From assembly GCF_000196615.1 (NCBI RefSeq), contig NC_014306.1, positions 1,178,001 through 1,242,000 of the forward strand: DNA of 64,000 nt, written 5' to 3'. Each line of letters begins with the position of its first letter. Position 1 is the first letter of the stretch. The DNA is from Erwinia billingiae Eb661. GTDB lineage: Bacteria > Pseudomonadota > Gammaproteobacteria > Enterobacterales > Enterobacteriaceae. This document shows, piece after piece, positions 40,643-44,664 of this stretch. The translations under genes were made by a program, and so were the position numbers. The notes below the pieces were generated by a model. It was given only the letters and a program-made list of their open reading frames with translations. It did not search any database and was not told where the DNA came from.

Positions 40643-41518
40643 CTATCCCACCATGGCCGCTTCTTCTAACAGCCAGCGGCGAAACAGTTCGATCTCCCGC
40701 TCTTCCTTGCGTGACGCCTTAACCATCATCCAGGTTGCCCTGTCGACCTCGGCAAAGCCCAGCGGCGCGATCAGCGATCCCTCACGGATCTCTTTTTTCA
40801 CCAGGATCTGCGGCGTCATAATAATCCCCAACCCATTGCGGGCTGCCTGGATCGCCAGCGTCAGATTATCAAAGTGCTTTCCTGCCCAGAAATCGCCCCG
40901 TGCGCCGGTTTTCTTCGCCCATTCAGCCCAGGCATGCAGCTTGGTATCCGCGTGCAGCAGCGGCAGGGTGGAGAAGTCCGTTTCATAGGTAAAGCGGTTG
41001 CTGAACGAGGGCGCGCAGACCGGGCCGATATAATCGACGGTGATAAGCGTGGCGGCAATATCGTCCTGCACCAGCTGTTCATGGCTGAGGATCAGCAGGT
41101 CGGACTGTTCGTTGCGCACCCGCTCAATATCCACATGGGTCTGGAACGTCAGCGCAATATCTTTGTGGCGCTCGGTAAACCGGCTGATCCTCGGGATCAG
41201 CCACTGCGCGAGAAAGCTGGGTGCGCAGGAGACGGTCAGGCTGTTCAGGTTTCTGGCGCGGATCTTCTCACAGGTGGTTTCGATCTCACGGAAGGTGTGC
41301 ATACAGCAAACTTTCAGCCGCTCGCCGTCAGAGGTCAGCTGTACCCGACCATTCGCCCGCAAAAACAACGGCTTCCCTAACCACTCTTCCAGCAGTTTTA
41401 TCTGATGGCTGACCGCACTGTGGGTCACGCTCAGCGACTGCGCCGCCAGACTGAAATTCTGATGCAGTGCGGCCTGATGAAAATAGCGCAGGGCGCGCAG
41501 TGAGGGGAGTCCTGACAT
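40643..41518 (-). CDS. LysR-family regulator of the adjacent PP-loop/NUDIX/PLP/EamA cluster
   Basis: The 291 residues have the N-terminal winged helix (about 7-65; FSLAAQSLSVTHSAVSHQIKLLEEWLG) of the GcvA/AmpR-like branch and a periplasmic-binding-type effector domain (about 92-285). It is transcribed away from the four-gene cluster that starts 203 bases away, the usual layout of a LysR regulator and its target. The effector is unknown. It is absent from this position in E. coli, where adk follows htpG. Confidence 0.88.
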   Translation of the reverse strand: MSGLPSLRALRYFHQAALHQNFSLAAQSLSVTHSAVSHQIKLLEEWLGKPLFLRANGRVQLTSDGERLKVCCMHTFREIETTCEKIRARNLNSLTVSCAPSFLAQWLIPRISRFTERHKDIALTFQTHVDIERVRNEQSDLLILSHEQLVQDDIAATLITVDYIGPVCAPSFSNRFTYETDFSTLPLLHADTKLHAWAEWAKKTGARGDFWAGKHFDNLTLAIQAARNGLGIIMTPQILVKKEIREGSLIAPLGFAEVDRATWMMVKASRKEEREIELFRRWLLEEAAMVG

Positions 41519-41721
41519 AAGAGTGCTCTGTGAGAAAAACTAACAGCAAGTGTCTGTTTATATCATTTTAAAGTCCAGTCGGTTTTACCTAATCTGATTT
41601 CGCAGACAGGGAGGTCTGCCCGAAAACAAAGCTGCAGGCTCTTAACTGCAGCGCATGAGGCGGCCATCTCTCCCCGGATTAACCCACGATTACATACAAC
41701 AGCGACGTGAAGGAAAGGAAA

Positions 41722-42432
41722 ATGACAACACAGCATTCCGTAAAAACACAGCTTGTAATGTTTACCGGTGGACGTGATAGCACACTGGCAGCGTGTTATC
41801 TGATGTTACAGGGTATCCCTGTGCATCTTTGGTCAGGAAACAGTGGATGTTCACTGCATCGTGGCATTTTATCGCACCGGGTTGATGAGCTGAAAAACCG
41901 CTTTGGCGATTTGGTGGTTGACCATACGGTGGCGGATATCAGCGGGGCATTCCGCTCCATCGCCATTGAACACCTGGAAGACGATATCCTCAAATACCGG
42001 AAAAACCTGGTGTTATTGGGCGAGAAACTGGCAATCCATGCCCATCTGGTGGATTTCTGTCGACGTAACGACATCAACACCATTAACGATGGCATCACCC
42101 ATTATCAGATGGAGTTCCCGGAGCAGCGGCAGGTGGCGAAATCGTTCCTGATGGAGATGATGGCGCAGTTTGATATCAACTATCAGTCGCCGATCTATGA
42201 ATTCGCACAGTCAGCGGATGACGTGAAATATCGCCTGCTGCAGCTCGGGATTTCCACCAAATCGCTGGAAGGCATCAGCATCTTTGCTGACAGCTTCTCC
42301 ACCCCAAGCGATGAAGTGATCCTCGCATATCTGAAAGACAAAACCCCGCTGGCACTCAACATTGTGCGTTTCCTGTCAGGCGAAACCCTGACCACCCAGC
42401 TGCTGGGTAAAACGACCAGTGCCGCTGCCTGA
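41722..42432 (+). CDS. PP-loop ATP pyrophosphatase-type protein, unknown substrate
   Basis: The ATG at 41722 follows an AAGGAAAGG ribosome binding site and gives 236 residues. The N-terminal motif FTGGRDST (14-21) is a PP-loop of the adenine nucleotide alpha hydrolase superfamily (QueC, ThiI, asparagine synthetase, NAD synthetase type), here with Arg in the variable position. Members adenylate a carboxyl or carbonyl and add nitrogen or sulfur. A conserved-looking GCSLHRG and [13 protein letters not shown] segment may form the substrate site. It is the first gene of a LysR-divergent cluster. It is not QueC, which is present elsewhere, and the product is unknown. Confidence 0.75.
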
Positions 42433-42448
42433 TACGGTCTCTTTATGC

Positions 42449-42476
42449 GACGTAACCTTCGGGTTACGTCCTTTTT
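42449..42476 (+). terminator. Hairpin with T run between the PP-loop gene and the NUDIX gene
   Basis: A perfect nine-base stem GACGTAACC / GGTTACGTC closes a TTCG tetraloop and is followed by CTTTTT. The NUDIX ribosome binding site GGAG comes right after it (42478-42481). It should cut transcription between genes 1 and 2 of the cluster, or act as an attenuator. Confidence 0.8.
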
Positions 42477-42487
42477 CGGAGCCTGAT

Positions 42488-42886
42488 ATGAAAATTATCG
42501 TGAAATGTGCGGCCATTATCATCTGGCAGCGTTCCTTGTTGCTGACCCGCAAGCGGGGGACCAGCACCTTTATCTCGCCTGGCGGCAAGCCGCTGGCTGG
42601 GGAAGATCATCTGGCCTGCCTGAAGCGCGAACTGCAGGAAGAGCTGGGTGTGCAGGTGAAAGCGTTCCGGCCTTTTGGCCTGTTTCACGGCCTGGCGGAG
42701 TTTGAGGCCACGGCCATTGAGAACCACGTTTATCACGTGGAGATCGCCGGCCAGCCGCGCGCCGGATCGGAAATTGAAGAAATTGCCTGGGTTAACTACC
42801 GCAGGCCACCTTGTGAAATCGCGGTGGGTTCGATCTTCCGCGATAACGTTATGCCACTGCTTTATCAGCAAGAGTTGATTAACTAA
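42488..42886 (+). CDS. NUDIX hydrolase of the accessory cluster
   Basis: The ATG at 42488, seven bases after GGAG, gives 132 residues. Residues 33-55 fit the Nudix box GX5EX7REUXEEXGU at every position (GKPLAGE ... RELQEELGV). Nudix enzymes cleave nucleoside diphosphates linked to another group. The substrate cannot be told; within the cluster it may act on an adenylated or nucleotide-linked intermediate, or as housecleaning. The stop overlaps the next start by one base. Confidence 0.85.
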
Positions 42887-43761
42887 TGGACGCATCCTCC
42901 TTATCACCCCATTTACAGACGGTTCACGGCGAGCAATTTTTTAAGCGAGCGCGTATGCAACGAGATGAATTAAGGGAAGAGCTTTCCCGCCTGTATAAGC
43001 TGCAGGAGTACGATATTTTCTTCGTCCAGTCCGTGCGGGTTGGGCTGGTGATCCTGTCGCACCTGTTCCATAAGCAGGAGACCACGCTGTGCCTGGCAAA
43101 GCATGCGCATTACCAGCCGGTGAGCGAACTGTTCCATCATCCGGCGTCGCAATTTACCGGGCCGGGCAACGTGCCGATTATCACGCACGTCAATCCTTAC
43201 ACCGGCGCGGTAAACAGCCTCGACGACAGTAAAGGCAAAGGCGTGGTGGATGCCTCCCACAGTTTCGCCACTAACCTGCACAGCGAGCTGATTGAAAAGA
43301 GTTCGATTTTTGTCGCGCCGATGCACAAGCATGCTTCGCTGACCGTTGGTTTGGCGATCATTGCCCTGCGCCCGGAGCATTTCAGTACGCTGATGCGCAG
43401 CGAACTGCGTCTGTTTGAAGAATCTACCGCCTCAGCAAAACCGCTGGAAGAAGCGATTGGCAATATTCGCAGCGCCAGCTGGCAGCCGTATAACGTGGCG
43501 AAAGTGATGAAGATAGCCCTGAAAGACATCGCCGGGATGGATTTCACTTCGATTAGCCATCCGGCGTTGCCGTTTGCCTGCTTTAACGTGCCGCCGTTAA
43601 GCGACGCGCTGCAAAAGCAGGTGAAAGCCGCCGGTGCCAGCTACTTTGCCCACTCGAAAACTCTTAGGCTTTCGTGCTGGGAAAGGGGAGACGGCAAAAA
43701 GGCCGTCGATATGAGCCGCCAGGTCGAACGGGATCTGACTCAGCTTTGGGAGCAACCCTGA
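42886..43761 (+). CDS. Divergent fold-type-I PLP enzyme-like protein, unknown function
   Basis: The 291-residue protein has no strong family match that I can name; it may be the group annotated as DUF6024. Its middle resembles class V aminotransferases: [10 protein letters not shown] (Asp122 in the place of the PLP-ring aspartate), then [20 protein letters not shown], where Lys148 could be the Schiff-base lysine. The usual N-terminal glycine-rich phosphate cradle is not obvious, so the assignment is tentative. It is coupled to the NUDIX gene (TAATG overlap), and the exporter gene follows immediately. Confidence 0.6.
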
Positions 43762-44664
43762 ATGAAACAGACTCTGCCGCTGAACGGCAATATGATCGGC
43801 ATCCTGGGCGGGATTATCCTCAGCACCGACTCGGTGTTTATCCGCCTGATGAATATCGAAGACTCATGGACGATTGTCGCGCTGCGTGGCGTTTTTATGT
43901 GGGGGATCTGTCTGCTGGTGTGGGCGCTGTGGGGGAAAAGTCGCAGCACGCTCGGCCAGCCCTGGTTAACCAAAGATAACGTCTTATCAACGCTGTTTTT
44001 CTGTATCTCGTCAGCCTGCTTCGTTAATGCGCTGAACCGGGGAAATGTGGCGACGGTGCTGGTGATTATCTCCTCGACGCCGTTTATTTCCGCGTTGATC
44101 TGTCGGCTGTTCTTTAAGATCAAAAGCGATCGCAGCGTAATGATCGCCGCGCTGGCGGGCATTGTCGGGGTGATCATCGTGATGTCTGGCCGTGCGGCAG
44201 GCGATCACGCGATCGCCAACGTCTACGCGCTGGCTACGGCGGTGTCGATGGCGCTGGCCTTTATCTTCACGTCGCGGGTGAAAGGCGGCACGGTGGGACT
44301 GCCGTCTCTCGGTGGCTTACTGGCGTCATTGCTGATTGCACTTTGGATGGGCCCGGAACTGAGTGCTAGTCTGAAAACGCTGACTTTTGCGCAATATGGC
44401 TGGTCGCTGGCCGAAGGCGCGCTGATCATGCCGTTGGCTATGGGTTTGATCACCTTATCAACCCGTTACGTTTCCCCGGCAAATGCCGGTCTGTTCCTGC
44501 TGCTGGAAACGGCGCTGGCCCCGTTATGGATGGCAATATTCCTCGGAGAAATGCCGACAATTCAGGCAGTTGTTGGCGGTGCCGTGATCGTGACCGCGGT
44601 GATTTCGCAAACTATCTGGGCGCGTCGTCATGTTGCGGATGCCCGTTACGCGGACGCAGGTTAG
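43762..44664 (+). CDS. EamA/DMT-family transporter of the accessory cluster
   Basis: The 300 residues contain ten hydrophobic segments in two EamA repeats (about 10-140 and 152-290). There is a DMT signature in the first half (VALRGVFMWG) and a second-half segment GLFLLLETALAPLWMAIFLGE typical of the family. Such proteins mostly export amino acids and metabolites. The start directly follows the stop of the preceding gene, so it is probably the exporter for the product of the cluster, or protects the cell from it. Confidence 0.88.
   Translation: MKQTLPLNGNMIGILGGIILSTDSVFIRLMNIEDSWTIVALRGVFMWGICLLVWALWGKSRSTLGQPWLTKDNVLSTLFFCISSACFVNALNRGNVATVLVIISSTPFISALICRLFFKIKSDRSVMIAALAGIVGVIIVMSGRAAGDHAIANVYALATAVSMALAFIFTSRVKGGTVGLPSLGGLLASLLIALWMGPELSASLKTLTFAQYGWSLAEGALIMPLAMGLITLSTRYVSPANAGLFLLLETALAPLWMAIFLGEMPTIQAVVGGAVIVTAVISQTIWARRHVADARYADAG

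Follow-up and report, generated by a model that had tools for sequence, protein, structure and literature searches.

This article deals with a gene cluster that lies between htpG and adk in a stretch of 64,000 nucleotides from Erwinia billingiae Eb661 (contig NC_014306.1, positions 1,178,001 to 1,242,000 of the forward strand), which we will call the window. There, a gene for a LysR-type regulator diverges from four plus-strand genes coding for a PP-loop ATPase, a NUDIX hydrolase, a protein resembling pyridoxal phosphate (PLP) enzymes and an EamA-family exporter. Judging from the genes and their relatives, we assign this locus with high confidence to the ycfR-ycfABCD cluster for 6-thioguanine (6-TG). 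This is a known system, here in a further Erwinia genome.

The genes at the htpG-adk site

The layout given in Table 1 agrees, in open reading frames (ORFs) as in Pfam matches, with the original prediction made from the DNA letters, and one annotated E. coli record has the order htpG-adk-hemH, with htpG directly followed by adk, as had been stated there. The row of four genes had also been described as near-overlapping, which holds for ycfB, ycfC and ycfD (an overlap of 1 nt, then a gap of 0) and not for ycfA and ycfB, which lie 55 nt apart with a stem-loop between them. This distance follows from the start codons, most likely ATG 41722 for ycfA and ATG 42488 for ycfB. The GTG codons of the longest ORFs (41707 and 42419, respectively) were rejected: for ycfA, because M1 of the PDB chain aligns at 41722 and an ATG is found there in 23 of 24 loci, and for ycfB, because an ATG stands at the same place, again in 23 of 24 loci. 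The gap between ycfR and ycfA measures 203 nt and that between ycfD and adk 93 nt. The true start of htpG is probably further in than that of its longest ORF.

Table 1. Features of the ycf locus, in coordinates of the window
Feature	Position	Strand	Description
ycfR	40643..41518	-	LysR-type regulator, 291 aa; PF00126 and PF03466
ycfA	41722..42432	+	PP-loop ATP-PPase sulfurtransferase, 236 aa; PDB chain 9kq6_N, 457 bits
ycfB	42488..42886	+	Nudix hydrolase, 132 aa, complete Nudix box; PF00293
ycfC	42886..43761	+	DUF6024 PLP-fold enzyme, 291 aa; PF19488, 523 bits
ycfD	43762..44664	+	Predicted EamA-family exporter, 300 aa; PF00892
Conserved block in the ycfR-ycfA gap	41549..41577	.	Core near-invariant in 23 aligned gaps
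Stem-loop	42449..42470	+	9 pairs, TTCG loop, followed by CTTTTT in the window; terminator-like site by pattern scan
htpG	38645..40576	+	Flanking gene; longest ORF
adk	44758..45402	+	Flanking gene; 82.6% DNA identity to E. coli adk

The regulator YcfR comes nearest to the GcvA model (PRK11139; 229 bits, below the cut-off of 288) and is 84-94% identical to its copies in 11 named full clusters. YcfA finds nothing above cut-off in Pfam and NCBIfam, the best Pfam model being DUF7411 (E 0.0019), and its identity to 11 named relatives is 84-95%. For YcfB, the PF00293 match was obtained with the longer reading from GTG 42419; the solved structures are related to it only distantly (best E 5.8e-6), and its identity across full clusters is 72-95%. 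YcfD is 65-87% identical to its counterparts in relatives where the full cluster adjoins adk.

Orthology to the Erwinia amylovora cluster

The assignment is carried by the relatives of YcfC and YcfA among the PDB sequences. In phmmer searches, YcfC had a single match below 0.001, 9kq4 (475 bits), and YcfA matched one distinct sequence, found in 9kq6 and four more entries (457 bits). The title of 9kq4, obtained via Foldseek, reads 'The structure of YcfC from Erwinia amylovora as a C-S lyase' (released 2025-10-01). A predicted model of YcfC (predicted local distance difference test, pLDDT, 71.4) served only to retrieve this title, and that of YcfA (mean pLDDT 43.6) was too poor for use. By the title of its relative 9kq4_A, the YcfC of the window would be a sulfur-mobilising C-S lyase.

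Among the genomes that we compared, one (G016) carries a YcfC identical to 9kq4 over 289 residues. Its locus (L018) runs ycfR-A-B-C-D-adk, in the order seen in the window, and its proteins are 88% (YcfA), 87% (YcfB), 72% (YcfC) and 71% (YcfD) identical to ours; for ycfR, the identity is 85% over 46 residues, the first 46 of the G016 gene in view. On the side of the literature, the four-gene ycf operon of E. amylovora is stated to make 6-TG (PMC7994395, in excerpt), YcfA is called crucial to 6-TG biosynthesis (excerpt of PMC5663808) and five genes are named for this compound (excerpt of PMC5683332). We thus read the locus as very probably the 6-TG cluster because YcfC and YcfA match 9kq4 and 9kq6, the gene order is the same, the motifs are intact, the genes co-occur and the ycf operon is published. 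Gene content, order, motifs and orthology to the E. amylovora set are established in this analysis, while 6-TG as the product of the E. amylovora operon comes from the literature (PMC7994395 and PMC5663808, both in excerpt).

The original prediction had called the set uncharacterised and knew of no described pathway for it, naming beforehand the assignment to a described pathway as the outcome that would overturn it; this claim was wrong, as the set is the described 6-TG cluster (matches to 9kq4 and 9kq6; PMC5663808 and PMC7994395, in excerpt). Its outline of a compact, LysR-linked locus for biosynthesis and export of an amino-acid- or nucleotide-derived molecule, in which a PP-loop enzyme would add N or S and a PLP enzyme takes part, nevertheless fits the 6-TG cluster in its nucleotide and sulfur options. 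The observation is thus partly confirmed and its interpretation partly supported. A locus of 'unknown function' in Pfam is thereby settled, the DUF6024 protein of the window being YcfC. This Erwinia should then be a 6-TG producer, which would bear on its competition with other organisms and its contact with plants. No mention of DUF6024, of the PDB codes of the YcfA and YcfC structures, or of a 6-TG biosynthetic gene cluster in Pantoea was found in the openly licensed PMC literature. An Aeromonas cluster, given a similarity of 0.14 to the thioguanine biosynthetic gene cluster in an excerpt of one paper, was set aside as unrelated.

Catalytic motifs and proposed mechanism

The catalytic motifs of the cluster are intact, as far as can be read from the protein sequences. 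YcfA carries the PP motif TGGRDS, and its PP-loop, Cys25, Cys43 and Cys113 are invariant in 12/12 aligned proteins. Over loci L002-L051, the PP motif is present in 36 of 40 ycfA matches and the Nudix box in 34 of 40 ycfB matches, counts that include the window's own copy and genomes present twice. Matches that lack the motif or box belong to decayed copies (L008 and L037, L010, L012 and L020), with the exception of L040, a full cluster in which letters are altered at the end of the Nudix box. The YcfC of the window keeps D122, H125 and K148, as do all 22 full-cluster loci counted, a number that includes neither duplicates nor L040 and L042, which are divergent (both show HKH). That K148 is the PLP lysine is our reading of an HK motif known from class V PLP enzymes; the solved structure played no part in it.

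In the most likely mechanism, YcfC would free sulfur, probably from cysteine, and YcfA, using ATP, would activate the 6-oxo group of a guanine compound by adenylation, allowing sulfur to replace the oxygen group. YcfB may trim the nucleotide precursor or the product, YcfD may export the product, and YcfR would turn the operon on. For this strain, the individual steps, what YcfB and YcfD do and where YcfR binds are inferred.

Distribution and linkage of the cluster

The relatives sampled comprise 147 genomes, the window's own included, with matches counted at E 1e-20 or better. YcfA is found in 24 of them and the YcfC family (DUF6024) in 31, with 23 having both, so that the co-occurrence of PP-loop and PLP-like genes, which the original prediction had proposed to look for, is borne out (Fisher p 4e-19, kinship ignored). 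DUF6024 stands without YcfA in 8 genomes and YcfA without DUF6024 in one (G004). The four genes ycfA, B, C and D occur together in 23 of 30 loci, the window's own (L032) included; these loci are those of the 31 DUF6024 genomes, G056 excepted, and all of the 23 full clusters but that of G063 adjoin adk. The full set is also found in 11 of 15 named loci, many of whose genomes recur among the 30. The grouping of ycfABCD is not due to chance.

Over the whole order, DUF6024 was found in 6 of 394 genomes, all of one family. The genus of the window (g1) also includes E. typographi (G013, locus L002), E. oleae (G027, L004), E. rhapontici (G015, L005) and E. piriflorinigrans (G009, L012). In a tree of YcfC, the window groups with E. 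typographi, Pantoea sp. BAV 3049 (L008) and two further species (support 86). E. piriflorinigrans retains only remnants of ycfA, which is reported as missing there (PMC5663808, in excerpt). The 'inserted' of the original prediction is not borne out: since the same site is occupied in many Erwinia genomes and in G060, of another genus, where the ycf set also adjoins adk, and since the G+C of the cluster equals that of the window (0.549 for both), the set may be old at this place.

Two loci are noted in passing. In G004 (L051, 5751-7505), the htpG-adk site holds ycfR and ycfA, with no match to ycfB, ycfC or ycfD. In G063, of another genus, the 14 kb that were read include a full ycf cluster (L050) but no htpG or adk; a transfer is possible in this case.

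Alternatives to the 6-thioguanine assignment

Several points weigh against the assignment. YcfC and YcfD reach an identity of just 71-72% with their E. amylovora counterparts, the product is assigned to this strain from its genes alone, and the linkage has its exceptions, YcfA being absent in 8 of 31 DUF6024 genomes and DUF6024 in 1 of 24 YcfA genomes. The sources also differ on the enzymes required. Litomska 2018 is said to describe a YcfA-YcfC pair. By contrast, YcfA and YcfB are given as necessary and sufficient in an excerpt of PMC7994395, citing Coyne 2013.

The lower identity of YcfC and YcfD, set beside that of YcfA and YcfB, could reflect another product, that is, a related thio-purine or thio-nucleoside. 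We consider this improbable, as YcfA, the presumed purine-acting enzyme, is the most conserved of the set, with its PP-loop and three cysteines invariant, and the gene set and its order are unchanged with respect to E. amylovora. An undescribed biosynthesis-and-export pathway, as originally proposed, would suit the lack of a named Pfam function for YcfC and of a Pfam family above cut-off for YcfA, and is very improbable given that both have close solved relatives, that of YcfC being named from E. amylovora, and that all the genes have their match in the 6-TG cluster of the literature; it would stand only if the product were a different one.

Intergenic elements

Two elements of the cluster lie outside its genes. 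The conserved block in the ycfR-ycfA gap contains T-N11-A, a LysR-box-like motif, at 41553-41565, and is likely to be the site of YcfR; a scan of this gap for sigma-70 patterns gave no match.

The other element is the stem-loop between ycfA and ycfB. This gap folds into a stem of at least 8 pairs in 21 of 24 loci (deduplicated by sequence), the stem being absent from L013, L040 and L042, the last of which has an uncertain ycfB start. The covariation alignment holds 20 of the 21 stem loci (L025, whose gap is identical to that of L007, was left out). In it, 93.6% of the 220 cells pair and 10 of the 11 pairs are changed on both sides, values matched by none of 500 shuffles; in 9 of the 20 sequences, one outer pair does not form. 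Sliding the structure along the alignment gave 30-51% pairing, with two-sided changes in no more than 4 pairs, a control flattered by the structure being drawn from the same sequences. A genome-wide repeat was considered and rejected: this site is the only perfect match to the hairpin pattern in the genome, and the other matches all have 3 mismatches (12 matches in the forward direction, compared with 10 when the pattern was reversed as a control). The only Rfam match fell below cut-off, elsewhere than the hairpin. The hairpin is one of 12 terminator-like sites listed by the pattern scan, where 4.7 were expected. A plain intrinsic terminator is doubtful because the T-run that follows the hairpin in the window and its near kin is missing in most relatives. 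It may act as a partial terminator or as a processing or stability element.

YcfC-family proteins without YcfA

Besides the stem-loop, the second lead worth keeping is the occurrence of DUF6024 proteins, mostly devoid of the lysine, that are paired with a LysR gene where YcfA is missing. In g92, another genus of the Erwiniaceae, which we infer to be Pantoea, DUF6024 matches are found in 53 of 61 genomes, some being fragments (G494, G506, G509), and YcfA in 0 of 61 at E 1e-10, with a query that matches 24 of the 147 relatives and has no positive control in g92. Among the 31 of 53 g92 loci that were read (L047, L048, L054-L082), a ycfR-like gene (54-66% identity) diverges from the DUF6024 gene with adk adjoining, and 29 of them show htpG as well. 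At the position of K148, 28 copies have R, 2 have K and one has N, the presumed PLP lysine being replaced in 29 of 31, and H125 is E in 28. The median pairwise ratio of nonsynonymous to synonymous substitution (dN/dS, Nei-Gojobori) is 0.157 in g92 (range 0.042-0.418; 220 of 465 pairs with dS 0.1-1.5, median dS 1.25), compared with 0.109 for the YcfC of full clusters (68 of 231 pairs). No Pantoea LysR-htpG-adk locus was found in the openly licensed PMC literature.

Other lineages show the same arrangement or part of it. G056 (L049) has the LysR and DUF6024 pair with a Ser at K148. Izhakiella (L010, 5998-6876) and a near relative (L015, 5986-6873) have a lone YcfC with a Glu there, 68-72% identical to that of the window; the dN/dS of this pair is 0.066 at a saturated dS of 1.57, and for L010 the absence of YcfA refers to the locus. 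In four Erwinia genomes (L043-L046), ycfR is accompanied by a YcfC that is shortened, its match ending at about residue 205-207, and that lacks the lysine; ycfA, ycfB and ycfD have no match in these loci. Against a strict rule of lysine loss, K148 is kept without YcfA in L008, L012 and the g92 copies L058 and L063; in L008 and L012 this is as a fresh loss of YcfA would leave it. A quick tree of YcfC, of 64 rows after removal of 18 duplicate loci, requires at least 4 changes between the states with and without YcfA; as its branches are long and it lacks a true root, it does not settle their direction.

These observations lead us to a tentative two-part proposal, towards which we do not quite lean: the YcfC-like proteins without YcfA in g92 and a few other lineages, mostly devoid of the lysine, kept by purifying selection between htpG and adk and in most cases paired with a LysR gene, would be a repurposed pseudoenzyme, perhaps a ligand-binding partner in a regulator circuit, and the stem-loop of the full cluster would set the ratio of YcfA to YcfBCD.

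Comparison with known systems

The closest known system is the ycfR-ycfABCD cluster of E. amylovora, with the same genes, order and orientation, adk adjoining, YcfA to YcfD at 71-88% identity and the catalytic motifs shared. It differs from the cluster of the window in sequence divergence alone, its htpG side and most of its ycfR being outside the view. Coyne 2013 and Litomska 2018 are reportedly the studies of this E. amylovora cluster. The DUF6024 proteins without YcfA (g92, G056, Izhakiella and some Erwinia) share the family and, in the loci read, the htpG-adk site with the window, and most have a LysR gene beside them, but they lack ycfA and their PLP lysine is mostly replaced. The tgsABCDEF cluster of Staphylococcus chromogenes, compared here by its description, has in common with the window a PLP enzyme, a sulfur transferase of the nucleotide alpha-hydrolase type, a NUDIX protein, an efflux protein and 6-TG as product (PMC7994395, in excerpt). 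It differs in having six genes, among them two for NUDIX proteins, one for a HAD phosphatase and one for a SufS-like desulfurase (PMC7994395 Table 1, in excerpt). The window has four plus-strand genes, one NUDIX and no HAD gene in the row, which is not the tgs type. Its YcfA with the PP motif, YcfC with K148 and YcfB with the Nudix box, together with YcfD and a divergent YcfR in order, are those of the ycf type.

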